64,000 bases of DNA from Nymphaea colorata (Eukaryota; Streptophyta; Magnoliopsida; Nymphaeales; Nymphaeaceae): NCBI RefSeq assembly GCF_008831285.2, contig NC_045139.1, positions 16,722,354-16,786,353 of the forward strand, written 5' to 3'. The position numbers were made by a program, and so were the translations under genes. The stretch's first letter is position 1. Every line of letters begins with the position of its first letter. The notes below the pieces were generated by a model. It was not told where the DNA came from. It made no database searches and saw nothing but the letters and a program-made list of their open reading frames with translations. This document shows positions 898 through 64,000 of this stretch, in pieces.

Positions 898-3800
898 ATG
901 GAGGTCGCAACTGCGGTTTTCAACCTCCCCAATCGATTCCAAATCGTGGCGTCTTCACTGACGCCCTCCCTCTGCAGAAATACAACAAAAACTCTCCTCT
1001 TCTTTGCACCAGAGTCCTTCAAGTCCTCTCTCGGGTGGGCCATTGTCAACAAGAAACCGATTTCTGCAAATTTTTATGTGAAGAGAAGGAGAACTCTTTG
1101 TGGGTATGGAGTGAATTGCAGCAAAACTGACATAGAGAACGGAAAATGTGGAAAGGAAGAGTTTATAGTGGTGAACTTCTACCGGTTTGTGCACATAGAA
1201 CAACCTCAAGAAGAGGTTGCCAAGCACCACTCGTTCCTAGAGGTTTTTCTTCTGAACTAGTGTTATTTTCTGTTGTTAATCTCGTCAAACGGAAGGCCTG
1301 AACACTCATTTTAGTGTTAATCTTGGTGGTGTTGCAGGGTCGTGACATTCGTGGTAGGATATACGTCAACGAGCAGGGCATCAACGCCCAGGTGACTTTG
1401 TTGGTTTTTCCTTCCATTCCTTTCAAGTTAAAAGATGAACGGAAAGCTACTTTGGACAATATTTTAATAGGTTATCCGACATACGCATGCAAATGGCGCA
1501 TTGTTTTGATGGTTTGTATTGGAGAGGAAAATCAGCAAACTGATTTTAAGGAATCAAGAAAATCTTTATTATACATCAAAGAGGAAAATCATAAAGTGAA
1601 ATTTTAGGAAAGAAGTTATAATCTTTCCTTCTATTGTTGTAAATCACAAGATTGTGATCTTCCAATTCCAATCCCAAAACTTGTGGGATCTGCACATACT
1701 GTAAACTTGTATAAATACCCCATCAAACATGAAATGAAGTATCTCTTTTTGGCTCCTTCATCTTCCTCGTTCATCTTCTTTCCTCACGCTTTTCTTTACA
1801 TGGTATCAGAGCAGTGAAAGAAGAGAAGAGAAAAGAGTGTCGCTTACCCTGTCTGTCTTCTCCATTTCTTGATAAGCAGTGCGAGAAAGACAGAAAGAGC
1901 TGTTGAGATCGGGAGGTCGCCCATTCGTTCATTTGCTCTCCGATCTTCCATAACCGGTCTATTTCTGTCGTCGACCGCCAAATTCATCACCAAAACTTGG
2001 TGGGGATTGGCCATTTTCCATTTCCCTCAGTTTTCGTTCCCATTTCCCTTCTTCCAGAGCAGAGGAAGAAGGGAAATCACCATGGAGGGCCAGAAATCGC
2101 CCAATCTTTGGTTGGGGTTTAGAAGAGTAAGAAAGGAAAATCGCTCTCTCTCTCTTTCCCTCCCCGTTTCGCCTCTCTCTGCATACTCTCTCTTAGCCCC
2201 ATTCAGAGAGAGAGGGAAGTCCTAGTACCCAAGGAGAAACGGAGGCTGCCCGATTCTTCTCCTTCGACGCATCTTCCGCTTCCTGGAGGGCAGCTTCGAT
2301 GTCGATCTCCATGTCGGCATAAAGACGGGCGAAGGTGTTGTCATCGGAGATCAGGAGGAGGTCGCCCATCTCCTCTGCCTCCTTCACGTCTTCAGGAGGA
2401 GGTCGTCCATCTTCCTCAACGTATCACTATCGAGTTACCAATCTCGCTCTCTCCTTCTCTCTCTTCTCAGAGATCAGAAGGGAAGCGGGTGGAGGCAATC
2501 CCAGAAGTGTGTGGATTCTCAGACCTACCACATTTTGGCGTCCCTCCTCCTTCTTTTTGGTGGCCGCATCATGCCTACAGGAGGTTCCGACGAACACTGG
2601 TTTGAGGAAGAGGTCGTTTGGCAAGGCAGACTCATCGTGTGTGCTGGTCATCTTCATCGTCTCGCTCAAACCTCTGTTTCTGAGCTTTTCCTGAAGTGCC
2701 GCTCGATTCTGCAAAAGGTGCTCTTCGTAAGGTCGTGTAGGGTTCTTGCGTCCGCAAGCCCCCGTCTCCTTGCTCCTCCCTCCGGCCGCCCTCTTTGATG
2801 CGTTCCTGGATCGCTCTCTCAAGCGCTCCCTTTTTGCTTCTAGAAGCTTCTCCGAAAGGCAATCTAAGGGACGAAGATTGCTAGGCAAAGAACCATTGGA
2901 TTGGGTGAGGGATTCTCGCCGAAAGGGGTTCTCTTCTAATTGGATTTGGATCTGAAACTTGCATTCAATATTTTTCACTATGGCCACAACCCCTGTGGTT
3001 GATCGGACTACTGGTGAACAAAATGAATCGCCTTTCATCATGCACCACTCTGATAATCCTGGTGCTATTCTAGTGACAAATCCTCTTGTTGGCGACAACT
3101 ATTCCACATGGCGACGGACAATGAAGATGGCCCTTAGTGCCAAGAACAAGTTCGAATTTGTTGATGGTTCTATTCCAAAACCAACAACCACTAGTTCAGA
3201 CTATATGACATGGGTTCGTTGTAATGATTTGGTTCTATCATGGATTCTCAATTCATTATCCAAGGAGATAGCGAATAGCGTCATCTATGCCAGTGAAGCT
3301 CACGAAGTTTGGATTGATCTTCAAGAACGTTTCTCTCAAGGTAACGCTACTCGTATTTATCAATTGAAGAAGATGATATCTGATTTACGTCAAGAACAAA
3401 ATTCGTTGGCTGTCTACTTCACTACACTCAAAACTTTTTGGGATGAACTTGGATCTTATTCAACTGTGTCTACATGTACTTGTGGTGCGTTCAAAGAGTT
3501 TCATTCATGTCAAGATCATGAGAAAGTTTATCAGTTCTTAATGAGGTTGAATGAAAGTTTTAGCAATCTTTGTAGTCAGATTCTTGCTATCGATCCTCTA
3601 CCCAACATTAATAGGGTCTATACTATGCTGCTTCAAGAAGAGACTCAACATCCTGCATGTACTTGTGGTGCATTCAAAGAGTTTCATTCATGTCAAGATC
3701 ATGAGAAAGTTTATCAGTTCTTAATGAGGTTGAATGAAAGTTTTAGCAATCTTCGTAGTCAGATTCTTGCTATCGATCCTCTACCCAACATTAATAGGGT

Positions 3801-6800
3801 CTATGCTATGCTGCTTCAAGAAGAGACTCAACATCTTCTCACACCAAAAATGTCTGGATCCAATAACATAGCTCTTGCAGCCAGGTCTTCTCCTACATCA
3901 TATACCAAAAAGAATCTGGTAAGGACACTTAATGCTACTCGCAATCGTCCTTGACCACAATGTAATCATTGTGGAATGCTCGAGCATATAAAATCTCGAT
4001 GTTATGTGCTTCATGGTTATCCTCCAAATCATCCTAAGACTGCAAGTTCAACTATTGATTCTTCTAAAATTGACAAGGCGCAACAGGGAAGAACATTGGC
4101 TAATAATGTAAAAGTCAATGCTGTTTTGTCACAACTTACCGAAGAACAGGTCAGTCAATTGGCATCTTGGTTAAATGTTGATACTTCACCGGCTGTTGCT
4201 AATCTAGCAGGTAAACAATCATTCCCAACTCATTTTCCTTGGGTTATTGACACCGGAGCCTCAGACAACATGACACCTCATTTACATTTGCTCTCTAATA
4301 TCAAAACTCTATCAAAACATCGTGTGATCAACCTATCAAATGGACATCAAACACTAGTCTCTATTACTGGAACCGTTTATCTTTTAGCCACTATTCAGCT
4401 TACTGATGTCCTATATATTCATGATTTTAAATACAATTTATTATCAGTTCCAAAGTTTACCAAGACCATTAATTGTATTGCTGTTTTTCTTTCAACCTGT
4501 TGTGCTTTCCAGGACCCTTTGTCGAGGAAGCTGATTGGAGTGGGTAACTTGAACGGTGGACTTTACCATCTTCTTCTTCCAACTGCTTCACATGCTTTGT
4601 TTGCTTCTCCTAGTCATAAGACAACTCATATATGACATATGAGACTTGGATATCCTTCATTTGATAAGACTTTTTCATTGAATGAAAACATTTCTATTTC
4701 CAAGCATGATTCTCCTTGTGATGCATGTCTTAAAGCTAAGTTCACTCATTTGCCTTTTCCAACTAGTACTAGTAGAGCAAGTGATCCGTTCGGCTTGATT
4801 TATTGTGATATTTGGGGAGGATATGCTACGCCGTCACACACGGGAGCACATTACTTTCTCACCATAGTAGATGATTTTACATGATCGACTTGGGTCTTCT
4901 TGATGAGGTTCAAATTTGAAACATTTGCCTGCTTAACTCGTTTTTATGCCACAGTATTTACTCAATTCAATACTCATGTGAAATGTGTTCAGAGTGATAA
5001 TGGTGCTGAATTTACAGCTAATAATATGCAAGCCTATTTTCATGAGCATGGCATCGAACATCAAACTTCATGTGTTGGAACTCCTCAACAAAATGAGCGT
5101 GTTGAGAGGGAACATCGTCATCTATTAGAGGTGGCACGAGCACTTAGGTTTCAAGCAAATCTACCTATTACTTTTTGGGGTGAACGTATTTTGACTACAA
5201 CTTTTTTAATAAATAGAATGCCGTCAACTCTTTTGAATGACAAGTTTATTTTCATGAGCATGGCATCGAACATCAAACTTCATGTGTTGGAACTCCTCAA
5301 CAAAATGAGCGTGTTGAGAGGAAGCATCGTCATCTATTAGAGGTGGCACGAGCACTTAGGTTTCAAGCAAATCTACCTATTACTTTTTGGGGTGAATGTA
5401 TTTTGACTGCAACTTTTTTAATAAATAGAATGCCGTCAACTCTTTTGAATGACAAGTCTTCATTTGAACTTCTTTATAATAAAAAACCCAATTATGCTGA
5501 CTTGCGTGTTTTTAGATGCTTGTGCTATGCCAAAAATTTAAATCCACTGCACAAGTTCTCATCACGTGCATACAAATGTGTTTTTGTAGGTTATCCTCAC
5601 AATCAAAAAGGGTTTCGTGTTTATGATTTAGATACCAAACAAATTTTTACAAACAGAGATATAACCTTTTTTGAGGATCATTTTCCATTTCTAACAAAAA
5701 ACTATCATACTAATGATTTGAACAATGTCGTTTTGCCTCAACCCCAAGACGATTGTCTTGATGAGAAGTATATGACACCGTGTAAGAATGACATTCCAAA
5801 AAATTCTTCCCCACTATCACCCATTCAATCTCACGATTCCATCAACAATGCCAAAATCAGCCAGTCTCTCATGTTTCATATCAACAACCTATGTCAGACA
5901 TTTCACTTTCTTCAAACTCACTTGCTTTACACCGATCTAGTCGTACCCGTCATTCCCCTTCCTACCTTCAAGACTATGTGTGTTCCAATGTGATGGTTAC
6001 AAGTTCACCGCCTAAGGTATCTACTTCAACTAAGCAATCCTCAGGTACACGTTATCCCATACATAATTATCTACTTGTTCACAAATTCTCTAAATATCAT
6101 TATGCCTTTTTAACCTCTATCATGAGTGATGTTGAACCTAGCTCGTATGCGGAAGCCGTTAAGTATCAACATTGGCAAAGTGCTATGGCTGATGAGATTC
6201 AGGCTATTGAACAAAACAGAACATGGTCTATTACTACTTTGCCTCCAAACAAACATCCAATTGGATGTCGTTGGGTTTATAAGATAAAACGACGATCAGA
6301 TGGAAGTATTGAACGCTACAAAGCCAGCCTTGTCGCCAAAAGGTACACTCAACTAGAGGAACTTGATTATTATGAGACATTTGCTCCAGTTGCAAAATTA
6401 ACAACCATGCGCACGCTCCTTGCTCTTGCCTCTATTCAAGGATGGTACCTATATCAAATGGATGTGAGTAATGCATTTATACATGGAGAATTACATGAGG
6501 AAATATACATGAGCATTCCACCAGGCCTCTTGCGTGAGGGGGAGTATACTAGTAATAAAGTGTGTCGCTTTCATAAGTCTCTGTATGGACTCAAGGAAGT
6601 GCCACGTAACTGGTTTCACAAGCTGTTATCAACACTCAAAGGCGCTGGTTTCATTCAATCATCAGCTGACAGCACTCTCTTTACTCGGAAACATGAAAAA
6701 CCATTTATTGTTATTCTTGTCTATGTTGATGATCTTATCATTGCAGGAAATGATGAACCATGAATTGCTTCAGTTAAGCAATATTTACATTCGAAATTTC

Positions 6801-9800
6801 ATATTAAGGACTTAGGAATACTTAAGTATTTTCTTGGCATAGAAGTTGCAAGAGCGCCATCGGAAATATTTCTAAGTCAAAGAAAATATATTCTGGATAT
6901 TTTGAATGATGCAGGTTTGATGGGAGCTAAGCCTATGGACTTTCCAATGGAGCAAAAATTGCGATTAACTCCCAATGATGGTATTCCACTGAAAGATCCA
7001 GCTAAATACAGGAGGTTAGTTGGACGTTTGATTTATTTAACCATTACTCGTCCAAACATAATGTATTTAGTCCAAGTTCTCAGTCAATTCATGCAATCGC
7101 CACAAACTATACATTATCAAGCAGCACTTAGAGTATTGAAGTATTTGAAGGCTTCACCAGCAAAATGAATATTTTTATCCTCATCAAGTGCAACACAATT
7201 GAAGGCTTATTGTGACTCAGATTGGGCTAGCTATCCTAACACTCGTAAATCAGTTAGTGGATATATTGTGTTCTTGGGGAATAGCCCTATCTCTTGGAAA
7301 TCAAAGAAGCAGTCTATTATTACTAGATCGTCTGCTGAAGCAGAATACAGGGCAATGGCTTTGACAACTTGTGAAGTTGTTTGGTTAAAAGCCTTATTGA
7401 ATGACTTGGGGTGGAGTCATGATAAACCAGTCAATTTATATTGCGACAATCAAGCAGCTTTGCATATTTCAGCAAATCCAGTTTTTCATGAAAGAACAAA
7501 ACAAATAGAGCTAGATTGTCACTTTGTAAGAGAAAAAAAATCAGCAAGGAATCATTCGGGCTCATCATGTATCATCATGTTTGCGACTAGCTGATATTTT
7601 CACTAAACCATTGGGGAAAGACAGTTTTCAAACTTTAAGAATCAAGTTGGGTGTTTCAGATTTGCATACACCAACTTGAGGGGGAGTATTGGAGAGGAAA
7701 ATCAGCAAACTGATTTTCAGGAATCAATAAAATCTTTCCTATACATCAAAGAGGAAAATCAGAAAGTGAAATTTCAGGAAAGAAGTTATAATCTTTCATT
7801 CTATTGTTGTAAATCACAAGATTGTGATCTTCCAATCCCCAAATTTGTGGGATCTGCACATACTGTAAACTTGTATAAATACCCCATCATACATGAAATG
7901 AAGTATCTCTTTTTGGCTCCTTCATCTTCCTCGTTCCTCTTCTTTCCTCACGCTTTTCTTCACAGTTTGAATGCTGGTCTTCTGCTCAGTCATGATATGG
8001 CGGTCTTCATTTATCGAAAAAGAAGCTTGTTGTTGAATTGTCTTCATGCTTGTCTCATGCTACTGTCCCACAATGTGGTTAGTTCTATAGTAAGCTGTCT
8101 ACATGAAGATTTTTCTCTTTTTTATATCATCCATGCAATCTCTGTGCATGACACTTCAGAAATAATTTCACGTGTATAAGTGTACTTCTAACTGTAAATG
8201 TGGTTGCTACTTCAGGATCTAATAAGTAACACTCATAGGACATAAACAAATAAGCTGGTTTGCGTTTGTATTTTTACTACTATCGCTCTTCAAGTGGCCT
8301 TGCTTGTGAATATGGAACTGCAGGTTTGAATTTGAAACTGCCGGATCATTTTATGGGAAGAAAATGCATGCAAATTTCCTTTTTAACCCTTCTGTTTTGT
8401 GTTGGTCAAGTAAAATTTCCCGTCAAGTTGCCTCTAAGGACTAATGTGCATCTTTGCTGCAGTATAGCGGCCCATCCCAGGATGCATTGGCATACGTCGA
8501 ATGGTTGAAGGAAGATGACCGATTTTCTGATATTTTGGTTCAGATTACACCAGCATCAAGTGGGCATGCATTTCCTTGCCTTAAACTGCGGTATAAACCT
8601 TCATTAGTCCAGGCAAGGCCATATATACGAACTTGGTGCTGGCATTTTTTTGAGAAAACGAAAGATTCGGCACTTTCAATGTTTCATTTGAATTATTGTT
8701 CTATGTGGTTGTTGAGTTTGATTGACATGAGTGCCTCATTTTATTGTTTCAGATGGAAGGAGGCATCTCACACCTTCCTATACTGGATCCAGAAATGAGG
8801 GCCGTACCATTGGATCCATCTGAGTGGAAGGAACGACTGCAAATGGCAAGACATTCATCATCTTCAGTTGAAATTAGCAGTTCAGCCCAGGAAAGGCAGA
8901 TTCTGCTTTTGGATGTCAGAAATGGTAGTTTTAACTTCTCCCCCTTAGAATGTCTTATTTTTGATGAATTTGGTATTCAATTTGTTTCTTTTTTGTCAAT
9001 TTCTTTTTACGAGTATTCTATTATATGTTATCTACTTAGACCATGAATATACGCTATCATATTCCTCAATCTGTCTAGCTGCTTTTGGAACTCTCGAAGG
9101 CTTAAACTCTTCACTTCGTTTTATTCTTGGCATTCGCTTCTTGCCAGGGTTTTCATTTGCATACTGTGTGTATCTATGTGGTCCGTGGAGCTAATGGTGT
9201 GTAATATGGATTGCTGGGGTCAACAATTTTAGATTTCTTCAATTTAGTTAACACCCTGATAATTTGGCATGTACAGGTTATGAATGGGATATTGGTCATT
9301 TTTGTGGAGCTCAGCGTCCACCTGTTGATTGCTTTAGGAACACCTCATTCGGGCTTTCTGATTCAGAGGTAAGAGTTCAAGCTGATGCATTGAAAGGGCA
9401 AATGACAACGAGAGGTCTGCCCTTCAGTTTTCCCAGTTTATGCGATTGCTTCAGTAGTTTTAATCATTTAACTTACTTTACAAGGAGGTAGGAAAACGAA
9501 TATGAGTACATTCTCCCACTTGCTGATCTGTGAAATAGTAAAACGTTGAAAAGCAAACCAGATTATAAGGTGATGGGTCTCAGGTAGCTACAAATTTGAA
9601 CTGAGTCAAATCATTTTAAAGGAAATCTGCATTTCAGGATTTGACTGATGAGATAATGTGATTTCTTAGGTCTTCATAGTTAAGGTTCTCTTACTTGAAG
9701 GATTAATCCATTACATGTGTTTGTTGTGTCTCTTCTGAGAGTACTTGAGCTCTTTTAACCATGTTTTATGTAGTTAAAATTGGTTAGTCAAATGGCATAA

Positions 9801-12800
9801 AGGGGGTAATTTTTTATTTAATTTTTTACAGTGAGATCCTTTTATTTATGATTGTGGAAGTTACATGTGGTACCCCTGGAATTTGAGGAAGTTAAATGTG
9901 ATATTGCTGGATTAGAGGCTCTAAAATTTCTGAATCATGTCGGCCACATTTTCCTTTGATTCTCTAAAGATTGATCGCGTGATGTACACTCATGAATTTT
10001 TCTCGAAACAATAATGGTATTTTGGTCCTTTCAAAAGGTTATTGACCAAATTACCCCTGATGGCGGCTGGAAATGGGCAGATTTCTTTTGGTAAGAGCAA
10101 GGGCATATGGGCCTTTTGCTGCATGAGGCAAAAGTCAAGTATAGCTAGGAAATCCAACTTGGGGATTTAGGTTCCAGCAATTTCATGCCCCAAACAAGAA
10201 GAGAAAGTGCTTGGGCACCTTGATGTAAGCAGATCTCAAATTGGAGCATTTTTTGTTGTCTGGAATCCATGAAGGGCAATTTAGACTTTTTTTTTGCAGC
10301 AGAGGTCAGAAGCCAAAGTAAAGGGGTTTTTTCATTTTATATTGTATTGTTCTTGAATTGGATTAGAATCTCAGTGTTTTTAGTTCCAAATTCAACCTGT
10401 TTGCATCCATAATCAATCAAAGAGGTTACATTTTCATTTCAACATTCCAAATCTCTGTGTGCCACGAGACTCTTTAAATAGGAAAAAGTGAATTTATGGA
10501 TCTAAATCCAACCATAAGAATATGGATTAACCTAAATCTGCCAGTCATTGTAACCTTAATCCTTCTGTGTGAATCCTTTTTAAGATGAACATGAAAAAAT
10601 CCCACTGCCCGAGTGTGAAATGAAGGTGTCCCCCTCCTACCTTGCTTCAAAGAGTCCAGAGCTGCGTTGGAGCCCCGGTTGGAGCCCATGCTGCACATTA
10701 ACTAGTGCATCCCTTTTCCTCCATCGGCACTTGGTTGAAGGGATATAGGCATCCATGCCAATTGAACTAACAACCAGCCACCTACCAGCTACAGGGCCCA
10801 AGTCGGTGCGCCAACACCCACTGGGGCTCTACATGAATGTGTACGTTTTGGATTCAATTTTAGAGTCTAAAACTAGACGAAAATAACAAAAGATAAACAA
10901 CAATATAAGTGCAAAAAATCTTTGATTTAGCTGCTCTGAGTCTGATTCTAGATGAGCTTATGCCTGCTCAAAATCTGCTTCACTAGAAAGATGTTGATCC
11001 GACCACAAAAAAGCCCAGTGAAGATTCGCCCTAGAATATCATTGATGACCTCTAAAATGTGATACATCACAATCTCCTAAACAGCATTTGATTGATTCAT
11101 TGGTCACCAAAGCCTCTACCAAAATGACCCTCTATAAAGAGAGAGAGAGAGAGAGAGAGATTAAACAGTCTGAGTGTCTGTCATCTTTGAATCCCGATAA
11201 ACGTGCCATTTTTCATATCTTTGGTGCCCAGGTAAAACTGGTCTGAGCCTGGGAGCTGATGTGCATTCCGGGGAGCAACATCCTCTAAACTCCTCGACAC
11301 AGTTGTTACAACATCTGCAAATGCAGCAAAGAGTATGCAGTAAAAATTTCAAACACTCATACATGCACGCAATCACACACACTAAACTGCAATACGAATT
11401 GTATGATGATACGATCTACAAAGAAAGAAAGATGTGTACATAGAGCAGAACCAATGTGCAAATTTTATGTCAGAATTTTATGCAACATACTTTACAAAGT
11501 AATACCTTCAGCTTAATATAACATTTGGCGACTGGAACAACTTTACTACAAAACCCACAACAAAGATCATCCAGACTCAGCTTCCTTTTGCCTTCAGGTT
11601 TCCGTGTCTATTGACTTCATAGATGACATGTGTCAATAGATACAGAAAATAAACACATAACCAGTAGCACCAACTCATCAATACTTATTTTCTGAAATGA
11701 TGTTCTTGCAATTTATTTTGTGACATTCAAATGAGTTCATTAACTTCATGTTTTCACTAATGATCGATCCAACCTTAATGATCTCATGAATTTGGAAAAT
11801 GAAGTGTAAACGACGCTCATTTCCTTCAAATTTTATGGTTACAAGAACCATGCTGTCTCCTTGCCAAATTTTGTGGTTATATAAGCGATGCTGATTCAGT
11901 TCAAATTTTATGGTCACAGATTTTATGCGAGTCAAAGCATAGTAACTGATAAGCCAAATGTTTGTTGAGAATTAGCAGTAAGGCTTTCATAAACAATGAA
12001 AAGTATGAAAATTAAGAAGATCTAACCTATAGCTCCTTCTTCCACCTCTACCTTTATTTTTTATTTGGTGTGCAAAATTCATATTTTCTTTTATGGTGCC
12101 TATTACATGTTATCTGTTTAGATAAACTTCTGCAACACAGTTTTATCTCTACAATCATAATCCTCAAACACTATCCAAGTCAGTGGCAGAGATACATGGG
12201 GCCTGGTGCAGGCCACGGCCCACACCAGCCTATCAAAAGTTTCATTTTAAAAATTCAAAGCTACATTGTGATGCATTAAAAGTTACATGGAATGCCCACA
12301 TTAGCCTTGGGCTGGTGACACGAGTGCCACTCAGCCAAAAAATCCTGGCTTCTCCACTGTCCCAAGTACATAGGCATGTATTCAACTTCCCACTTCCTTC
12401 CTATTTTAACCAACTTTCAGTTACCTCACAATCTCTCATTATCACCTTTCACACATTGCTTCAAAGTCTGTAAGTGTTCTTGAGTTAACAATGTAACTAA
12501 ATTACAAGCATATAATTCATGCCAAATTGCCAAGACTGATTAATATCATTTGATTGTTCACCAAGTCTGCACCCGATTGAAGTTCTCATGATTGTCTCCA
12601 TTCCCTTGTATGTGTTTGTATGTGTATATTCAAGGGAAACTATTATAAGGACAGAGTCATCTTTTGAGTTATGAGTAAAGGGGAAATGATTTCCATCCAC
12701 TGTATAAAGTCCGTTTTTCCAACTTATTCTTCTTCCTTTTTCCAATAATAGTTCTCCAGAAGATGGACTGATGAGAGCACAAGGTTCTTTTTCCCTGAGT

Positions 12801-15800
12801 TGTAGTCAATATGCCAAACCAACATGGTATTGTTTGGACAGTAAAACTCATGCACCACAAGAGGAAAAATGAGTACCAGTAGCTGTAGCAAAAACTTACA
12901 GGAAAAGGAAGTTGCAATCAAGGTTTGCACAGTTTATGAATGGGATATTGGTCATTTTTGTGGAGCTCAGCGTCCATCTGTTGATTGCTTTAGGAACACC
13001 TCATTTGGGCTTTCTGATTCAGAGGTAAGAGTTCAAACTAATGCATTGAAAGGGCAATGACAACGAGAGGTCTGCCCTTCAGTTTCCCAGTTTATGCAAT
13101 TGCTTCAGTAGTTTTAGTTTTAATCAATTAACTTACTTTACAAGGAGGTAGGAAAACGAATATGAGTACGTTCTGCCACTTGCATTTTATAAGGTGATGG
13201 GTCTCAGGTAGATACAAATTTGAACTTAGTCGAATCATTGTAAAGGAAATCTGCATTTCAGGATTTGACTGATGAGATAATGTGATTTCTTAGGTCTTCG
13301 TAGTTAAAGTTCTCTTATTTGAAGGATTAATCCATTTACATGTGTTTATTGTGTCTTTTCTGAGAATACTTGAGCTCTTTTAAGTTTTAACCATGTTTTA
13401 TGTAGTTAAAATCCTTTTATTTATGATTGTGGAAGTTACATGTGGTACTCCTGGAATTTGAGGAAGTTAAATGCGATATTGCTGAATTAGAGGCTCTAAA
13501 ATTTCTGAATCATGTCGGCCACATTTTCCTTTGATTCTCTAAAGATTGATACAGCAGAGATGGATCATGGAACATTCCTAGTTTATTACTTACTTATGGA
13601 AGATGTGCTTTTGGTATACATTCAGTGTGATTGTTCAGATCCTCTGTCCAATGTCAACAAAGAAACTACAGATATTATGATGTACTGCACCGGGGGCATC
13701 AGATGTGATGTGTATTCCACTCTACTTAGGTGGGTGCCGCTCGCGATAATTTTTTTCTTCTTGCAAAGTTGTTAAGAGTCGTGGATGTTGTTTATTAACT
13801 ATTTTTGTTAAATTATGGGCAGACAAAGAGGCTTCCAGAATCTGTACACTTTGAAGGGAGGCATCTCACATTTTCTTGAGCAAGAGGGTCCAGGAGAAGA
13901 TTGGGAAGGGAATTTGTTTGTCTTTGACTCACGTTTGGCTCTTCAACCGTCCACCTTTAAGCCTGATGCAAACACACATGAAAAGCAGAAAGGGAATGGC
14001 TTAATCCACAAACTAACATCAGCCAGATGCTATTTATGTGGATCTTCAGTGCTTGAACTCAGACATCGGAACTGTGCAAATCTTGACTGCAACTTCCTTT
14101 TCCTGTAAGTTTTTGCTACAGCTACTGGTACTCATTTTTCCTCTTGTAGTGCATGAGTTTTACTGTCCAAGCAGTACCGTGTTGGCTTGGCATATTGACT
14201 ACAACTCAGGGAAAAGGAAACCTTGTGCTCTCATCAGTCCATCTTCTGGAGAATTATTATTGGAAAAAAGAAGAAGAATAAGTTGGAAAAACTGACTTTA
14301 TACAGTGGATGGAAATCATTTTCCCTTTACTCAAAACTCAAAAGATGACTCTGTCTTTATAATAGTTTCCCCTTGAATATACACATACAAACACATACAA
14401 ACACATACAAGGGAATGGAGACAATCATGAGAACTTCAATCGGGTGCAGACTTGGTGAACAATCAAATGATATTAATCAGTCTTGGCAATTTGGTATGAA
14501 TTATATGTTTGTAATTTAGTTACATTATTAACTCAAGAACACTTACAGACTTTGAAGCAATGTGTGAAAGGTGATAATGAGAGATTGTGAGGTAACTGAA
14601 AGTTGGTTAAAATAGGAAGGAAGTGGGAAGTTGAATACATGCCTATGTACTTGGGGAGCCAGGATTTTTTGGCTGAGTGGCACTCGAGTCACCAGCCCAA
14701 GGCTAATTTGGGCATTCCATGTAATTTTTAATGCATCACAATGTAGTTTTGAATTTTTAAATGAAACCTTTGATAGGCTGGTGTGGGCAGTGGCCTGCAC
14801 CAGGCCCCGTGTATCTCTGCCACTTACTTGGATAGTGTTTGAAGATTATAATTGTAGAGATAAAACTGTGTTGCAGAAGTTTATCTAAAGTTCTAAACAG
14901 ATAGCATGTAATAGGCACCATAGAAGAAAATATGAATCTTGCACACCAAATAAAATGTAAAGGTAGAGGTGGAAGAAGGAGCTATAGGTTAGATCTTCTT
15001 AATTTTCATACTATTCGTTGTTTATAGAAACCCTTATTGCTAATTCTTGACAAACATTTGGCTTATCAGTTGTTATGTTTTGACTCGCATAAAATCTTGG
15101 ACCATAAAATTTGAACTGAATCAGCATGGCTTATATAACCACAAAATTTTACAAGGAGAGCATGGTTCTTGTAACCATAAAATTTGAAGGGAATGAACGT
15201 CGGTTGCACTTCATTTTCCAAATTCATGAGATCATTAAGCTTGGATCGATCATTAGTGAAAATGTGAAGTTAATGAACTCATTTGAATATCACAAAATAA
15301 ATCACCAAGAACATCATTTCAGAAAACAAGTAATGGTGAGTTGGTACTACTGGTTATGAGTTTATTTTCTGTATCGATTGACATATGTCATCTATGAAGT
15401 CAATAGACACGGAAACCTGAAGGCAAAAGGAAGCTGAGTCTGGATGATCTTTGTTGTGGGTTTTGTAGTAAAGTTGTTCCAGTCGCCAAATGTTACATTA
15501 AGCTGAAAGTATTACTTTATAAAGTATGTTGCATAAGATTCTGACATGCAAAAATTGCACATTGGTTCTGCTCTATTTACACATCTTTCTTTCTTTGTAG
15601 ATCGTATCATCATAGAATTCGTATTTCGTATTGCAGTTAGTGTGTGTGATTGCGTGCATGTATGCATGTTTGAAATTTTTACTGAATACTCTTTGCTGCC
15701 TTTGCAGATGTTGTAACAACTGTGTCGAGGAGTTTAGAGGATGTTGCTCCCCGGAATGCACATCAGCTCCCAGGCTCAGACCAGTTTTACCTGGGCACCA

Positions 15801-15861
15801 AAGATATGAAAAATGGCACGTTTATCGGGACTCAAAGATGACAGACACTCAGACTGTTTAA
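898..15861 (+). CDS. STR8: Rhodanese-like domain protein 8 type (STR8/TrhO family), eight exons
   Basis: Exons read as 898-1242, 1338-1391, 8463-8612, 8753-8924, 9277-9368, 13626-13729, 13823-14104 and 15708-15861. They join in frame to 1353 nt (450 aa), close to the length I recall for Arabidopsis STR8. The start at 898 is the first in-frame ATG and gives an N-terminus rich in Ser/Thr/Asn and basic residues, like a plastid transit peptide. Residues about 90-180 form the acylphosphatase-like N-domain of this family ([18 protein letters not shown]). A rhodanese domain follows, with active-site loop CTGGIRC and the predicted catalytic Cys at residue 292. The tail is cysteine-rich ([24 protein letters not shown]) and may bind metal. 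Bacterial TrhO relatives hydroxylate U34 of tRNA; the plant role is inferred only. Oddities: a retrotransposon in intron 2, a GC donor for intron 3, and a duplicated exon 5 plus inverted 3' end in intron 5. Confidence 0.88.
1512..1516 (+). repeat. 5' target-site duplication of the copia element (GTTTG)
   Basis: GTTTG directly precedes the 5' LTR and is repeated at 7965-7969 directly after the 3' LTR. This fixes the insertion point in intron 2 of the STR8-like gene. Confidence 0.85.
1517..1800 (+). repeat. 5' LTR of the copia element
   Basis: 284 bp, beginning TATTGGAGAGG and ending ACA. It matches 7687-7964 with scattered substitutions and one short indel near 1660. A TATA-like 'tataaatac' lies at about 1711-1719, as expected for an LTR promoter. 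Confidence 0.93.
1801..1812 (+). other. Primer-binding site of the copia element
   Basis: The sequence tggtatcagagc immediately follows the 5' LTR. It is the standard plant copia primer-binding site, complementary to the 3' end of initiator-Met tRNA. Confidence 0.9.
1813..2979 (+). other. Long untranslated leader of the copia element
   Basis: About 1.17 kb between the primer-binding site and gag. It is rich in CT tracts (around 2137-2215 and 2440-2470). Open frames occur on both strands, including one of 223 codons on the - strand, but none resembles a known protein. I regard it as non-coding leader. Confidence 0.6.
2980..3954 (+). pseudogene. Copia gag (UBN2-type), with an internal in-frame duplication
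   Basis: Starts at the ATG of '[12 protein letters not shown]'. The N-terminal part has the copia gag signature [16 protein letters not shown] and 'MALSAKNK'. Residues with 'CTCGAFKEF' through 'MLLQEETQH' occur twice in tandem with a 183-bp period (3475-3657 and 3658-3838 or so), which keeps the frame. TGA at 3952-3954 ends the frame before the zinc-knuckle region, which continues after it ('CNHCG' read near 3960). Confidence 0.85.
3976..7643 (+). pseudogene. Copia pol remnant: protease, integrase, reverse transcriptase, RNase H
   Basis: Order and motifs are typical. The protease motif DTGAS is at about 4249. Integrase pieces include '[12 protein letters not shown]' and 'QSDNGAEF'. Reverse transcriptase shows '[14 protein letters not shown]', '[13 protein letters not shown]' and the catalytic YVDDL near 6722. 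RNase H shows 'YCDSDWA' and '[10 protein letters not shown]'. The frame is cut by stops at about 4633, 4882, 5338, 6761, 7166 and 7591. A 212-bp tandem duplication of integrase sequence (first copy near 5032-5243, second near 5244-5455) also shifts the frame. It is a dead copy; no intact polyprotein remains. Confidence 0.9.
7679..7686 (+). other. Polypurine tract of the copia element
   Basis: agggggag lies directly before the 3' LTR, the usual plus-strand primer position. Confidence 0.8.
7687..7964 (+). repeat. 3' LTR of the copia element
   Basis: 278 bp, homologous to 1517-1800 over its whole length and ending in CACA before the GTTTG target duplication at 7965-7969. Confidence 0.93.
8613..8614 (+). 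other. GC splice donor of STR8 intron 3
   Basis: The conserved peptide ends KPSLVQ at 8612. The next bases are gcaagg, a GC donor with an otherwise good consensus. The following exon starts after 'ttgtttcag' at 8753 with MEGGISHLP. The nearest GT donor (8591) would remove conserved residues, so a GC-AG intron is the best reading. Confidence 0.7.
9279..9975 (+). repeat. Block A, copy 1 (native exon 5 and part of intron 5)
   Basis: This about 697-bp block is repeated directly at about 12934-13550 with several percent divergence. It contains all but the first bases of exon 5 ([12 protein letters not shown]...) and its GT donor, and ends at 'gattgat', where it joins the inverted block. Copy 1 is longer because copy 2 lacks two stretches, near 9525-9580 and 9778-9835. 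Confidence 0.9.
11161..11314 (-). pseudogene. Antisense copy of STR8 exon 8
   Basis: The - strand reads the C-terminal peptide of the STR8-like protein ([13 protein letters not shown] ... MTDTQTV) with its stop and 3' splice site. It differs slightly from the true exon at 15708-15861. It lies antisense inside intron 5, has no upstream exons on its own strand, and so is a duplicated gene fragment. Confidence 0.9.
12183..12362. repeat. MITE-like element inside the inverted arm
   Basis: One end reads 'agtggcagagatacat' and the other ends 'cctggcttctccactg', which are imperfect inverted termini of the 'cagtggcggagccagg' kind common in plant repeats. The counterpart in the other arm is at about 14650-14825. 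It predates the duplication because both arms carry it. Confidence 0.45.
12933..13024 (+). pseudogene. Duplicated STR8 exon 5 (copy 2) with a borrowed splice acceptor
   Basis: A second 92-nt copy of exon 5 ([19 protein letters not shown]...) with an intact GT donor. Its native acceptor was lost at the rearrangement junction. The AG before it (gcacag) comes from the inverted exon 7 fragment. If used in place of copy 1 the frame holds (first residue Val for Gly, and Ser for one Pro). If both copies are used, 92 extra nt break the frame. I treat it as a probably skipped duplicate. Confidence 0.75.
12934..13550 (+). repeat. Block A, copy 2
   Basis: Direct repeat of 9279-9975, about 617 bp because of two internal deletions relative to copy 1. 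It continues into the unique STR8 sequence with exon 6, so this is the copy that keeps the original downstream junction. Confidence 0.9.
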
Positions 15862-17046
15862 TCTCTCTCTCTATCTCTCTTTCTTTATAGAGGGTCATTT
15901 TGGTAGAGGCTTTGGTGACCAATGAATCAATCAAATGCTATTTACGAGATTGTGATGTATCACATTTTAGAGGTCATTCAATGATATTCTTGGGCGAATC
16001 TTCACTGGGCTTCTTTGTGGTCGGATCAACATCTTTCTAGTGAAGCAGATTTTGGGCAGACATAAGCTCATCTAGAATCAGACTCAGAGCAGCTAAATCA
16101 AAGACTTTTTGCACTTATAATGTTGTTTATCTTTGGTTATTTTCATCTAATTTTAGACTCTAAATTGAATCCAAAACATGCACATTCATGTAGAGCCCCA
16201 GTGGGTGTTGGCGCACCGACTTGAGCCCTGTAGCTGGTAGGTGGCTGGTTGTTAGTTCAATTGGCATGGATGCCTATATCCCTTCAACCAAGTGCCGATG
16301 GAGGAAAAGGGATGCACTAGTTAATGTGCAGCATGGGCTCCAACCGGGGCTCCAACGCAGCTCTGGACTCTTTGAAGCAAGGTAGGAGGGGGACACCTTC
16401 ATTTCACACTCGGGCAGTGGGATTTTTTCATGTTCATCTTAAAAAGGATTCACACAGAAGGATTAAGGTTACAATGACTGGCAGATTTAGGTTAATCCAT
16501 ATTCTTATGGTTGGATTTAGATCCATAAATTCACTTTTTCCTATTTAAAGAGTCTCGTGGCACACAGAGATTTGGAATGTTGAAATGAAAATGTAACCTC
16601 TTTGATTGATTATGGATGCAAACAGGTTGAATTTGGAACTAAAAACACTGAGATTCTAATCCAATTCAAGAACAATACAATATAAAATGAAAAAACCCCT
16701 TTACTTTGGCTTCTGACCTCTGCTGCAAAAAAAAAGTCTAAATTGCCCTTCATGGATTCCAGACAACAAAAAATGCTCCAATTTGAGATCTGCTTACATC
16801 AAGGTGCCCAAGCACTTTCTCTTCTTGTTTGGGGCATGAAATTGCTGGAACCTAAATCCCCAAGTTGGATTTCCTAGCTATACTTGACTTTTGCCTCATG
16901 CAGCAAAAGGCCCATATGCCCTTGCTCTTACCAAAAGAAATCTGCCCATTTCCAGCCGCCATCAGGGGTAATTTGGTCAATAACCTTTTGAAAGGACCAA
17001 AATACCATTATTGTTTCGAGAAAAATTCATGAGTGTACATCACGCG
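14070..17046 (+). repeat. Block B, original orientation (STR8 3' end and 3' flank)
   Basis: This 2977-bp block holds the last 35 bp of exon 7, intron 7, exon 8, the 3' untranslated region and the intergenic space. It ends 38 bp short of the stop codon of the convergent response-regulator gene. It is the partner of the inverted copy at 9976-12934; the spacer between the arms is about 1.1 kb and holds exon 5 copy 2, exon 6 and most of exon 7. Confidence 0.93.
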
Positions 17047-17084
17047 AGCAACTGCTGAGTTGCCGTTGTGTTTATTGGCAAACA
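15862..17084. other. Convergent intergenic region between STR8 and the response regulator
   Basis: Contains the 3' untranslated regions of both genes, a CT-rich tract after the STR8 stop (15862-15892) and no supported gene. A 74-codon open frame at 16324-16548 is repeated exactly at 10474-10698 because both lie in the inverted arms; it resembles nothing I know. Confidence 0.6.
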
Positions 17085-20016
17085 CTAATCCTTTTCTTCT
17101 CTAACTAGAGTTTCAGAGAGAGAACCTAGAATCGGTTTCTGCTCGGCGTCACGGTACCTGTCTGAATGCCGGTTCGATCTCTTCATGTGGATCCCGAGAC
17201 GCTTCACGTCCGATAGTTTGAGGGGTTTGAGAAGGAACTCTTTGGCTCCCTCCGCGAGGCATCTGAAGAGAAACCAAAAAAAAAAAAAAATCATTTCGTG
17301 TTCTAAAGAATTCACCGATTCACCCAAACATATTGGGAGCAACTTCATCTGACACAAAATTACCTTTATAGTTTCAGTTGAAGACTAAAAGATAAAACAA
17401 ATAAAAAAATAACAATAAAAAATGTGAGAAATGGCGCCCTTGAATCGGAGATGAATCGATTCATACATACCAACACGATTTGAATCGGCCGATTCAGGCA
17501 GTTCAGCCTATTTTGTCCTTGTTTTGATATCATTAAATATGATAAAAAAAACATGCAAATCAACATTATAACAAGACAGATCTCTTGTTTTATTCCTGTT
17601 CCTGATCTTAAACGTCAATTGTGTGAAGCCCACGCCCCACTAGAAACGAGGCCGTCTATGTGACGTTTTATTATCGATAATTACAAAACGAGGATTTAAG
17701 TACGCATATTTAACAATTGGCGGCAAATAGTTTCTTCAATTAAAGAAATGGGGGCTCACCTGTCGATCCTCGTCGGAACATTTTCTGACGATACGATCAC
17801 CACCGGGATCTCCCTCAGATCTGACGACTCCTGATTCACTCAAATTCAATATATTTAAATTTTCTGTCTGAAATTAAAAAATATATATATTAACTATTTA
17901 TTAATTTGTTTTTTTAATACCTTGAGTCTTTTGAGCAGATCATACCCTGTCATCTCCGGCATGCAGTAATCAGTAATTATCATATTCACGCTTACGTCCT
18001 GAAACCATTGCAACAATTGCAGTTAGACCCCTCCACACTTTTCCATAAATTAATTTCTCATCGCTTGACGCGAACAACTAACAGATACGCCGAATCTTGG
18101 CGTCGGGATGTGAGCGTGAAATGAATCGAGACGCCAACCAAGGAAAGGACATGACGGTGCTTGCTCTAGAAAATATTTACAGAAAGCAGGCTATGTCAAT
18201 GTTGTCACGATGGACGTCACTTTGGTTAATGATCATGTTCGGATCAGGAGTTGTTTGGATGACATTTCAAAGCTAGGTTTTGTAAAAAAAAAAAAAAATG
18301 GTTTTTGCCTCAAATATCAGGATTTTTTATTGTTTAGATGTCATCAAAAGTAGGTTCACGTAAAATTCAATTTTATAAAACCTGGTTTTGCAAGAAAAAG
18401 TGGAAAACCTGACTCTCTCGGGTTATTCACAAGACCAGGTTTTAGAGCTCACATAAACAAACAAACCAAGTTTTAAAAGACCATAAAAAAAACTTGGTTT
18501 TCATAAAACTATGTTTTTAAGAAACTGAAATATATTTGGGTCATTTTAAAAATAGAATTAGATATTTTGGTCATTTTCTCTAAAAATAAAATTTCTACTT
18601 TTACCTTTATAAATGACAATAATCATCGGCAACTCTAAGCCCTTTAACACAAGAACATGCAGAACTAAGAGTTTGTTGACAAACAATAAGGTTGCATTGA
18701 TTGATGCTCTCTCTTTCTCTCTTTGCCAATCATCTTCAATTTTCTTTTAAACTACAATGGACTACAACTGGTTAGGAGCTAAATTAATTTTCATTATTTG
18801 AAGTGCATTTTTCTAGTATAAACATGCGCGCACAAAAAGAGAGAAAGCTCCACTCAAAGTCATCCTAAGAGTGATGGCTATGGGAATCGAATAGGAGACG
18901 TACTCGATATATGCTTCTCCCCGACCAGCTATCTTTATAGTGTGTGAGAGACAGTCCACTTCCCAAGTCATTTTAGTCAGAGAATAAACATAGTTGCACA
19001 TAATTTTCTGCATCAATGAGAATATATATATATATATCTATCTTACCAGTCCTTGTTTGTGGTATAGCTAGAGAATGAAATTGCTTGATTTTAATGATCA
19101 ACTTAAACTCCTACTCAAAGTACCAAAAACAAAATATGTGAACACATATACATAACATTAAAAAAAATTAAAGTGTCTTTGGTATAAGGCTATTCCCAAG
19201 TTCTTCCTCACATACTTGAGATAGAATATATAAATGTTTGTACATTTTCACAAATTATCTAAATTAGTGACCAGAGGATGGAAAAGATTTCAGTGTTTTC
19301 GACCATGCTGAACACATGATTCAATTATTTAATCAATGAATATAAACAACATCTAATAACAACAACAACAACAATAATAATAATAATCAAGAAGCATGGA
19401 TTAAGCAACTAGAAACCTTTTTATTTGATACCTATTGAATTGAGTGCATATATTACTGCTGCTGAGGGGTGCCGGCACACTGGTGAGTTTAAAGCCCGTT
19501 AAAATCCATTTTGTATGTGCAGTTCGTTATATTGGATCTAAAAGCGTCGACTACTAAACAAGAAAACAGTTTCTGTCATTTCTTTATATAAAAGAAACGC
19601 GTTAATTATGTCGCTGTTTCACTTACATTTTGCGATGACTCGTCCCCCAACCCCAAGATCTCCAACGCTTGCTTCGCGCTGTCGACGGCCGTCACTGCAC
19701 CCAAGATCAAAGCATTTATCGTCAGACAAAGAAAATTTCCGGCCACCCATCTGCCATAATCCGTTCTTCCGGCGACAAGAAGCACAAGAAGTTAAAGCTG
19801 TAAAACCGGGAGACGGTTTTCTTCCGGCCACCAACCTTTGTAGGAAGAGAACCGGAGCAGCCTCTCCATCACCTTGCGGTCGAGGAGACTATCATCTACG
19901 GCTAACACGTGGAGCTGCGGCGTGTCTCCTGCTGCCGGTACCCGTCGGGGGCACGACGGCCCCACTGAGATATCCTCCGACTCCGACCTCTTCTGTTCTT
20001 CAGCCGGTGGGTCCAT
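17085..20016 (-). CDS. Type-A two-component response regulator (cytokinin ARR-like), five exons
   Basis: Exons on the - strand: 20016-19836, 19694-19627, 17998-17921, 17830-17760 and 17262-17085, all with GT-AG introns. They join to 576 nt, 191 aa. The receiver domain fills most of it: LHVLAVDDS with the acidic pair at residues 41-42, phospho-acceptor Asp 93 in MIITDYCMP, and Lys 145 in EFLLKPLK. The DNA-binding Myb-like domain of type-B regulators is absent and the C-terminal tail is short, which marks type A. Such proteins damp cytokinin signalling after phosphotransfer from histidine phosphotransfer proteins. The start is the first in-frame ATG; the frame stays open upstream to 20055, but without ATG. 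Intron 2 is long (about 1.6 kb). The gene converges on STR8. Confidence 0.92.
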
Positions 20017-32474: not shown

Positions 32475-33208
<734 letters not shown>

Positions 33209-36793: not shown

Positions 36794-37528
<735 letters not shown>

Positions 37529-41148: not shown

Positions 41149-43407
41149 TCAGTATTCGCTTAAACAATTTGAGCTGTCGTTGGATATGCCGGAGTGGTAA
41201 AGCAAGGCCCACAGGTGCGTTATGAATTCCCCTCCACTTGTCAAGTACTTAACATGAGCCCAAGATTGGCCGGACGGCGCAACGAGCAAGATCAACTCCG
41301 TCCAAAAATCCGCCAATATCTTCCACTTCCTTCCCTCTTCCATCATCTCCAGTTGATTCGCCAAAATGGAACCCAAGCAGATGACGGATCCAGAAGCCGC
41401 CGCCTCTTCCTCCCTGCATTCTCCGGCGAGCGCTCTCGCTCTCTCGTGCCTCTGCCGCAGCGTCCTGAACTTCCCCAAACGAACGCCTGCATCCTTGACC
41501 GCATCGTCGAAGATTGTTCCGGTGAGATACGGATTCCCCGGCAATAGTTCCGGCGCGAAGGCGACGAGGTAGGCGCAGTATTTGGACAACTGCGTGGCGA
41601 CGAGTTGGTGGGTACCATAGAAGGCTCCTTCGGCGTAGGCCTTCCGCTTCAGCAGTCGCTGCTCGCCCGGACACACGGCCCTCCACCAGGGCCGCACCGG
41701 CGGCGGAGGCTCGCACAAAGTGGTGGCGACGTGCCAGACTAGGATCGTGTGGATGCAGGTCTCCAGATTAACGCATGCCCACGAAAGCTCGTGGCGGTCG
41801 CTGTTCTGCAGCAGCGAAAACTCGCCCCTCCTCAGGTGCGGCCAGCTGCCCCTCAGGCGGCCGACCACCGCCCGCTTAATCTCTGGACACAGCGGCACGA
41901 ACTTCGCTGGCTCCAGGCCCTGCCTAGGCTTGTCTATCAGGCCGCGCAGCAGTAAACCAAGAAGACGGCCCCCTATGCTCCTGTGACGACCATATCTGTG
42001 GGACTCGAGCAGGGAGTACTGGCGAAGAGTCCTCGTCCATGGTCGCCAGAGAGAGAGAACCCTAAACGAGTGATTCACCGCCTCGACGATCTTGATCAAT
42101 CTCAAGCACATCATCTGTATGAACATCCTGATCCTCACAGCAATGTGGCTGTCGCTGCTGCTTTGTAGAATCGAGTCTTGTTTCACATAGATTGAAACCA
42201 GCAACATCTTGAACCAGTTGGTGGTCGCCAAATTGATGAGTTGAATCACCTCCAAGAAGGCAAGCACCCCGAGGATCACCCTCGTCTCCACTACGTCTAC
42301 ATTGATGCCGTTCTCCCCGTACGGATAGGATGCACAGTGGTCGGCTGTTGGCTCGTGGTTTCCCAGCCAGTTGATGCACAGCAGACACGAAACTATGACG
42401 GAGAGGGAGACCGGAATCCTTATGCAGATGAACTCCCTGGAGTGAAGGAGCGAGTATTTGGTGTAGAAGTATTCGAACAAGAACTCGAGCTCGACCTCCA
42501 CGACGCGGAAGGCTCTCTCGCCGTCTTCCTTGGAAAGGAGGCCGTCGCGAACCAGCCTCCAGGTCTTGGACTCGTCCTTCTCGGCCATGTCGAACCCGGC
42601 GAGACTTCTCTTGATCATCTTGAACAGGGCGAAGGACAAGCAGGTGTCACGGATCCGGTCGCCGATGCCGTGCAGAGCCTGCCAAACTTGATCGATGGTG
42701 ATCAAGTAGAGGGGAGGAGGCTGACCTATTCGGGCGCCGGCGGCGTGTTTCTCGCCGTAGAAGATGTACTTGTACCCTGTCATGGAGGTAGGCTCGGCCT
42801 CTGCGTCTGCGCTCAAATGGGGCTCGATGTTCCTCATGTAATCGGCCACCAACTTCGATTGCTTGCCCAACCCGAACGATCTACTGACGTTGAGATGGGC
42901 AGCCCCCAGTTCTCTTATTCTGGTGAATGCAAGAACACAAAGAACCCAGGGACCCATTTGGAGCTTGCCGGAAAGAGGATAGTTGACGATTATCTGAGCT
43001 GCAAGGAGAGATTTAGCACAGAAGTACAGGAAATTGGCCTTCCTTTTCTCGATGTCATCAAGTTCAAAGGCGGAGACAGTGTCGGCGCCGCCGATCAAGA
43101 CCAGCAAGTAAGCTGCCCAGAAACCGAGAAGGTCGTGGTAGCTTCTGCTTGTGTTCATGAGTCCGAGAGTGAAGGCGACGACGCCGTAGGACATGGTGGA
43201 AGAAAGCCAGAGGAGTCGGTGCACCAGGCTTTCGGAGGCGTACCGGCGTCTGTAAGTGCCGAAGAGAACCTGGTAAAAGAGCAGCATGGTGCAGAAGGCG
43301 GTGAGGACCTCCATCTTCCGGAGAGTTTCAGACACTGTGACATCGCAGGGTTCAATGTAGCTATTGCTGCCGCCAGTGTTGGGGATGCTGCCGTTGACGA
43401 CATTCAT
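41149..43407 (-). CDS. DUF4220/DUF594 membrane protein, single exon
   Basis: The first in-frame ATG at 43407 gives 752 aa (MNVVNGSIPNTGG). The N-terminal half has several hydrophobic helices and the DUF4220 signature (GFWAAYLLVLIGGADTVSAF). A middle charged region follows, then ILVWHVATTLCE, LSKYCAYLVAFAPELLP and the DUF594 C-terminus (WAHVKYLTSGGEFITHLWAL). The family is plant-specific with no known biochemical role. The frame is open for 64 further codons upstream (to 43599), encoding a hydrophobic, signal-like stretch (FLLLICLLVF) but with no ATG. So either translation starts at 43407 or an upstream exon supplies the start. The coding region is notably GC-richer than its surroundings. Confidence 0.88.
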   Translation of the reverse strand: MNVVNGSIPNTGGSNSYIEPCDVTVSETLRKMEVLTAFCTMLLFYQVLFGTYRRRYASESLVHRLLWLSSTMSYGVVAFTLGLMNTSRSYHDLLGFWAAYLLVLIGGADTVSAFELDDIEKRKANFLYFCAKSLLAAQIIVNYPLSGKLQMGPWVLCVLAFTRIRELGAAHLNVSRSFGLGKQSKLVADYMRNIEPHLSADAEAEPTSMTGYKYIFYGEKHAAGARIGQPPPLYLITIDQVWQALHGIGDRIRDTCLSFALFKMIKRSLAGFDMAEKDESKTWRLVRDGLLSKEDGERAFRVVEVELEFLFEYFYTKYSLLHSREFICIRIPVSLSVIVSCLLCINWLGNHEPTADHCASYPYGENGINVDVVETRVILGVLAFLEVIQLINLATTNWFKMLLVSIYVKQDSILQSSSDSHIAVRIRMFIQMMCLRLIKIVEAVNHSFRVLSLWRPWTRTLRQYSLLESHRYGRHRSIGGRLLGLLLRGLIDKPRQGLEPAKFVPLCPEIKRAVVGRLRGSWPHLRRGEFSLLQNSDRHELSWACVNLETCIHTILVWHVATTLCEPPPPVRPWWRAVCPGEQRLLKRKAYAEGAFYGTHQLVATQLSKYCAYLVAFAPELLPGNPYLTGTIFDDAVKDAGVRLGKFRTLRQRHERARALAGECREEEAAASGSVICLGSILANQLEMMEEGRKWKILADFWTELILLVAPSGQSWAHVKYLTSGGEFITHLWALLYHSGISNDSSNCLSEY

Positions 43408-43599
43408 CTCTGATATTACCGATCTCAAAATGTCATCGACAATGAAAGTGCTCCTGGTCGTCAATGGCTTCGCTGCCTTTCCGCCATCAACACAAAAGGT
43501 ATCGAAGACGAGTAAACAAATCAAAAGAAGAAAAGTAGATGGATCGAGGAGGAGAAAAGATTGAAGAGAGAACCTGGTTCGGCTTGCAATTACGGGCAA

Positions 43600-48844: not shown

Positions 48845-64000
<15,156 letters not shown>

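Follow-up and report, generated by a model that had tools for sequence, protein, structure and literature searches.

A TrhO/STR8-like gene of Nymphaea colorata carries a composite repeat in the order A - inverted B - A - M - B, which we read from its sequence as an old rearrangement of a known class that the gene tolerates and that was probably followed by a later conversion step. Complex rearrangements combining duplication and inversion have been described chiefly in human disease, in which they are recent and deleterious. Here, such an event has apparently persisted in a plant gene with an open frame and a retroelement nearby as a local clock. If real and fixed, this locus would show how a gene handles a 3-kb self-complementary pre-mRNA together with two competing exons, and it would allow asking at what rate conversion between inverted arms proceeds. 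Compared to a preliminary description of the window (the whole stretch of 64,000 nucleotides that was analysed), the new observations are the identity of the two inverted arms over their outer 822 bases, the position of join 2 on a splice acceptor with a substitute AG, and the clock provided by the long terminal repeats (LTRs) of a Copia-type element.

Layout of the block and its host gene

Self-comparison of the window and pairwise alignments show that A is present twice, M once, and B twice, with the inverted copy of B (arm I) seated between A1 and A2 (Table 1). The self-comparison contains one inverted pair (9971-12934 versus 14070-17051, 95.4% over 2,996 columns) and three direct pairs within A (9270-9523/12926-13183, 9563-9780/13187-13412, and 9836-9975/13411-13550); the final few bases of these pairs are chance extension, and the block ends were set at base level. 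Kilobase-long matches at 95% exclude a chance origin of the pairs, and the structure is confirmed as real in the sequence as given. The block order of the preliminary description thus holds with base-level ends, and the alignment of both A copies and both B arms that it had proposed confirmed the repeats and gave their divergence. B was rightly said to comprise the last exon (exon 8) and the 3' flank, and it additionally includes intron 7 and the end of exon 7 (13823-14104), within which it starts. Removal of 9976-13550 (3,575 bp, arm I plus A2) leaves a single A, M, and B in the usual order; the earlier statement that undoing the insertion restores a normal gene is valid for the coding exons as modelled only.

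Table 1. Positions of the gene, the repeat blocks, their joins, and the intron 2 retroelement in the window.
Feature	Position	Strand	Remarks
TrhO/STR8-like gene, ATG to stop	898..15861	+	hand exon model, 450 aa open frame
Exons 1-4	898-1242, 1338-1391, 8463-8612, 8753-8924	+	
Copia-type LTR element, intron 2	1517..7964	+	target-site repeat GTTTG at 1512-1516 and 7965-7969
Exons 5-8	9277-9368 (or 12933-13024), 13626-13729, 13823-14104, 15708-15861	+	
A1: first copy of exon 5 and intron 5 start, native splice acceptor	9278..9975	+	alignment with A2
Join 1: distal A1 end to distal B end	9975..9976		1 bp exact homology
Arm I: inverted B with exon 7 end, intron 7, exon 8, and 3' flank, antisense to the gene	9976..12934	-	
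Arm I, outer part	9976..10797	-	identical to 16225-17046, 0 differences in 822 aligned bases
Join 2: proximal B end to proximal A start, exon-5 acceptor	12926..12934		1 bp exact homology
A2: second copy of exon 5 and intron 5 start, splice acceptor from arm I end	12934..13550	+	
M: single-copy, exon 6 and most of exon 7	13551..14069	+	between A2 and B, in no repeat pair
B: normal orientation, from within exon 7 to ~38 bp before the response-regulator stop (downstream of it on the - strand)	14070..17046/7	+	
B, outer part	16225..17046	+	same as arm I; putative conversion tract or later re-copied piece

The host gene was modelled by hand with eight coding exons and splice sites that are canonical except for the GC donor after exon 3 (a GC-AG intron with the donor GCAAGG at 8613-8618). 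Its 450-aa product matches the Pfam families UPF0176_N (PF17773, 1.7e-17), Rhodanese (PF00581, 1.2e-7), and Rhodanese_C (PF12368, 1.1e-15), and this succession of an N-terminal UPF0176 domain, a rhodanese domain, and a rhodanese C-terminal domain is the one of the TrhO/UPF0176 rhodanese family. Residues 82-424 match residues 29-324 of PDB entry 9j5o, a tRNA uridine(34) hydroxylase (E 7.3e-36). Judged by these matches, the product is a TrhO-type protein homologous to the tRNA U34 hydroxylase TrhO, and the gene probably encodes a tRNA-modifying enzyme; that it is the orthologue of Arabidopsis STR8 and deserves this name is our assumption.

Exon 5 has a length of 92 bp, and in the exon model either of its copies used singly keeps the frame open throughout (450 aa), while inclusion of both shifts the frame and leaves 319 residues before a stop and inclusion of neither leaves 241. 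The A2 exon encodes two residue changes relative to A1, Gly to Val and Pro to Ser, the former being a product of the join itself. Join 2 falls on the exon-5 splice acceptor and turns TGTACAG into TGCACAG, with the AG retained. Overall, the coding parts of the gene look intact at the level of the exon model.

Joins and rearrangement class

Each join has 1 bp of exact homology, less than the at least 2 bp of microhomology used as a hallmark of MMBIR/FoSTeS. By the looser measure of microhomeology (at least 5 bp with at least 70% identity), join 2 has 7 of 9 bases in common (TG-ACAG-T; best 10-bp window with 7 matches, P 0.028) and join 1 has 4 of 5 (TTG-T), with a best 10-bp window of 5 matches that is at chance level (P 0.29); these P values come from 50,000 sequence pairs drawn at random within the same 10 kb and are uncorrected for the testing of two joins. 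Microhomology at the joins is therefore weak and above chance at one of the two. The preliminary description had correctly reported little homology, including 0-1 bp at 9975/9976 (1 common base, 9975), though its 2 bp TT at 12933-12934 is strictly 1 bp (12934) within the 7-of-9 match. Its preference for template switching over recombination between repeats agrees with these exact homologies of 1 bp and with parental sequences that are unlike beyond a few bases.

Where the two parents of a join disagree, the rearranged sequence has the bases of the left-hand one, at join 1 as well as at join 2. As described for human rearrangements in PMC6902434, the sequence of a join follows the priming parent across an imperfect match, so that left-parent sequence at both joins would mean synthesis from left to right, from A to inverted B to A. 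The joins are consistent with such a direction, if weakly, since the similarity at join 1 is no better than chance.

The account of the human PLP1 locus in PMC6902434 defines the class DUP-NML-INV/DUP, in which two direct copies of a proximal segment enclose an inverted copy of a distal one, with a copy-neutral piece between the segments, two template switches, and microhomology or imperfect "microhomeology" at the joins. In our sequence, two duplicated segments flank the single-copy M, one of them is inverted between direct copies of the other, and the joins connect distal A to distal B (join 1) and proximal B to proximal A (join 2). By this order, which matches the published definition, the rearrangement belongs to the DUP-NML-INV/DUP class; the earlier assignment to template-switch duplication-inversions stands in general terms, but the precise class is this one and not plain DUP-INV. 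In patients, three structures are compatible with the same two joins according to PMC6902434, and the contiguous sequence here directly shows the first of those outlined there. Unlike the PLP1 cases of that report, which are human, de novo, and disease-linked with pieces up to megabases apart, the rearrangement described here is found in a plant, spans ~7 kb in total, is old (3.8-4.8% divergence), lies inside one open-frame gene, and would have been partly homogenised later. Discontinuous duplications, inverted pieces, and template switching are likewise part of the MMBIR model of human copy-number change as presented in PMC2621351, compared to which the mechanism proposed here is inferred from one sequence. 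Judged by titles and abstracts, at least three of the four papers listed for DUP-NML-INV/DUP concern human rearrangements and the other describes a structural-variant caller. The plant titles listed on MMBIR, template switching, or inverted duplication cover reviews, T-DNA, maize Ac, and genome elimination, from which we claim no absence of plant cases.

Divergence of the copies and order of events

A1 and A2 differ at 23 of 603 aligned bases (3.81%, with 7 gaps) and the inner part of B (14070-16224) differs from arm I at 101 of 2,124 (4.76%, with 12 gaps). The Copia-type element in intron 2, recognised by matches to Pfam RVT_2 and copia gag, served only as a local clock, and its two LTRs differ at 12 of 277 aligned bases (4.33%, with 1 gap). 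These divergences are not significantly different (A versus inner B, Fisher P 0.38; LTRs versus inner B, P 0.88), and the corresponding K2P distances of 0.039 for A, 0.049 for inner B, and 0.045 for the LTRs translate into ages of ~1.5-1.9 My (at 1.3e-8/site/year) or 8-10 My (at 2.5e-9), for which the rates are assumed and only the relative agreement is meaningful. The ratio of transitions to transversions is alike in inner B and A (68/33 versus 16/7, P 1.0) and differs between inner B and the LTRs (4/8, P 0.028). The open reading frames of the Copia-type element are fragmented, and it contains internal direct duplications (3470-3652/3653-3835 and 5026-5251/5237-5465).

The matching divergence of A and inner B fits one event and thus the earlier claim of a single contiguous insertion, yet B itself is not uniform, with a diverged inner part of ~2.1 kb and an outer part in which none of the 822 aligned bases from 16225 to the end of B differ between the arms (Fisher P 3.9e-15 against inner B). 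In 200-bp steps, divergence ranges from 1.5 to 7.5% up to ~16270 and is 0 from there on, with an abrupt drop at 16224 and an identical tract that stops exactly at join 1. The longest identical run has 823 bases in coordinates (822 plus the base common to join 1, the alignment "gap" being the overhanging end base), whereas 20,000 random reshufflings of the 114 variant events never gave a run longer than 344; the second-longest run (15701-15831) lies over exon 8. A lone old event is insufficient to produce these identical bases, so that the single rearrangement of the preliminary description covers A and inner B but calls for a second step. The simplest cause seems to be gene conversion between the arms, of which an identical tract in otherwise diverged arms is the expected trace. 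In the W chromosome palindrome of Salix purpurea, a limited identical stretch in diverged arms is likewise attributed to conversion (PMC7023750). That palindrome includes a type-A response regulator in arms of tens of kilobases on a sex chromosome (PMC7023750). B, in contrast, ends with ~38 bp left to the stop codon of a neighbouring response regulator and includes none of its coding sequence.

We also considered a transposable element as source of the identical tract and rejected it, as repeats in 16100-17100 are short and imperfect and the self-comparison (matches over 100 bp) revealed no long match elsewhere in the window; scans for Rfam families and tRNAs across the window gave 0 hits each. 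Low divergence in the region of exon 8 (1 of 155 bases versus 100 of 1,969 in the rest of inner B, P 0.0057, for a stretch picked post hoc) possibly marks a second small conversion tract. The inner B arms bear no signature of methylation decay, with 32 versus 36 transitions in the two C/T-G/A directions (P 0.72) and no CG bias (6 of 68 transitions at CG, which accounts for 60 of 847 C/G positions), and the 12 versus 4 transitions between A1 and A2 are not significantly skewed either (P 0.077). In these base changes there is thus no sign of the arms as methylation targets.

Taken together, the rearrangement most likely goes back to a copying error in DNA replication or repair. A fork moving right through A would have lost its template at 9975 and re-primed on the opposite strand, close to the distal B end, from which ~2.96 kb of B would have been copied backwards until a second switch to the A start at the exon-5 acceptor and normal copying thereafter gave A - inverted B - A - M - B with undamaged coding exons. 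Much later, gene conversion would have made the outer 822 bases of both arms identical. This explanation as a whole, two template switches with later conversion and a predicted exon choice and hairpin, is the one that we regard as rather probable.

Its main rival is a re-copying of the arm end, as a tract that runs exactly to this end would also fit a later copying step that makes join 1 younger than join 2. An old template switch would then have created A - inverted inner B - A, and a later break at the junction of A1 and the arm would have been repaired by copying B out to 17047 and end-joining it to A1, with the outer 822 bases added or replaced. The precise end of the tract at join 1, the abrupt shift from about 4-5% to 0%, and the contrast of a blunt-like join 1 with the imperfect microhomology of join 2 all speak for these two rearrangements. 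However, they require an extra join, and ordinary gene conversion likewise halts where shared sequence ends, which leaves them a serious but clearly less probable course. An assembly error that wrongly joined diverged haplotype pieces or a paralogue would suit the identical stretch, and divergence of 0-5% between haplotypes is possible in some plants. We consider it unlikely given that the window contains 0 N, that the copies differ by many substitutions and indels (23 mismatches and 7 gaps in A, 101 mismatches and 12 gaps in inner B), and that two joins without overlap-length homology, both back in register, are hard to obtain via overlap assembly. Non-homologous end joining of a broken-off fragment of inverted B and A into a break without replication, for which the 1 bp of exact homology at the joins could be quoted, seems very improbable because both source copies remain and extra donor copies would be needed, and because the inserted 3,575 bp end in an A copy that passes into M without losing register or showing a join on its right (no scar or third join is seen at 13550/13551 in the A alignment).

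Predicted RNA consequences and neighbouring features

Under the favoured explanation of template switching and later conversion, the two copies of exon 5 are predicted to be alternatives with one per mRNA, and the pre-mRNA could form a hairpin of 3 kb. Direct splicing of A1, with its native acceptor, to exon 6 is the most likely reason why the gene tolerates the insertion. Pairing of arm I with B is predicted over ~3 kb of the pre-mRNA, with a computed -306.8 kcal/mol for exon 8 against its antisense copy; both splice sites of intron 7 fall within the predicted stem, and the loop would contain exon 5', exon 6, and most of exon 7. It is conceivable, though we would not expect it, that a template switch gave a functioning housekeeping gene not just these mutually exclusive exon-5 copies but a second copy that is used via the acceptor made by the join, and that the hairpin over the last exon and the intron 7 sites makes the gene both target and source of double-stranded RNA and perhaps sets its dosage, while conversion between the arms keeps the hairpin young. 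Endogenous inverted repeats of plants and the ARR17 repeats of poplar are reportedly hairpin small-RNA loci. The arms described here resemble such loci as a long inverted repeat that could in principle be transcribed into double-stranded RNA, but the gene around them still looks functional and their transcript is a prediction.

Through the inverted B, the 3' flank of the neighbouring response regulator comes to lie in intron 5 in sense orientation, and premature polyadenylation through this flank was considered and is not supported: the sole AATAAA within ~1.2 kb past the regulator stop is located at 17076 and thus outside B. Within arm I, AATAAA occurs once (11648) and ATTAAA twice (11160 and 12275). 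The regulator gene itself, which we take to be of type A, lies downstream on the minus strand in convergent orientation (Pfam Response_reg, E 1.7e-20) with its stop at 17087-17085.

Further along the window, a direct duplication (32384-34121/36700-38454, 89.6%) includes two open reading frames of 146 aa each for L23-type ribosomal proteins on the minus strand (32680-33120 and 36999-37439) and is adjoined by a perfect direct repeat of 126 bp (32090-32215/32230-32355). An uninterrupted reading frame of 837 aa with DUF4220 and DUF594 is found at 41149-43662 on the minus strand. At 48845-49618, a Stress-antifung (DUF26-type) reading frame with two matched stretches is followed 6 kb on by a kinase exon (55412-55867), both presumably parts of one or more cysteine-rich receptor-like kinase genes.
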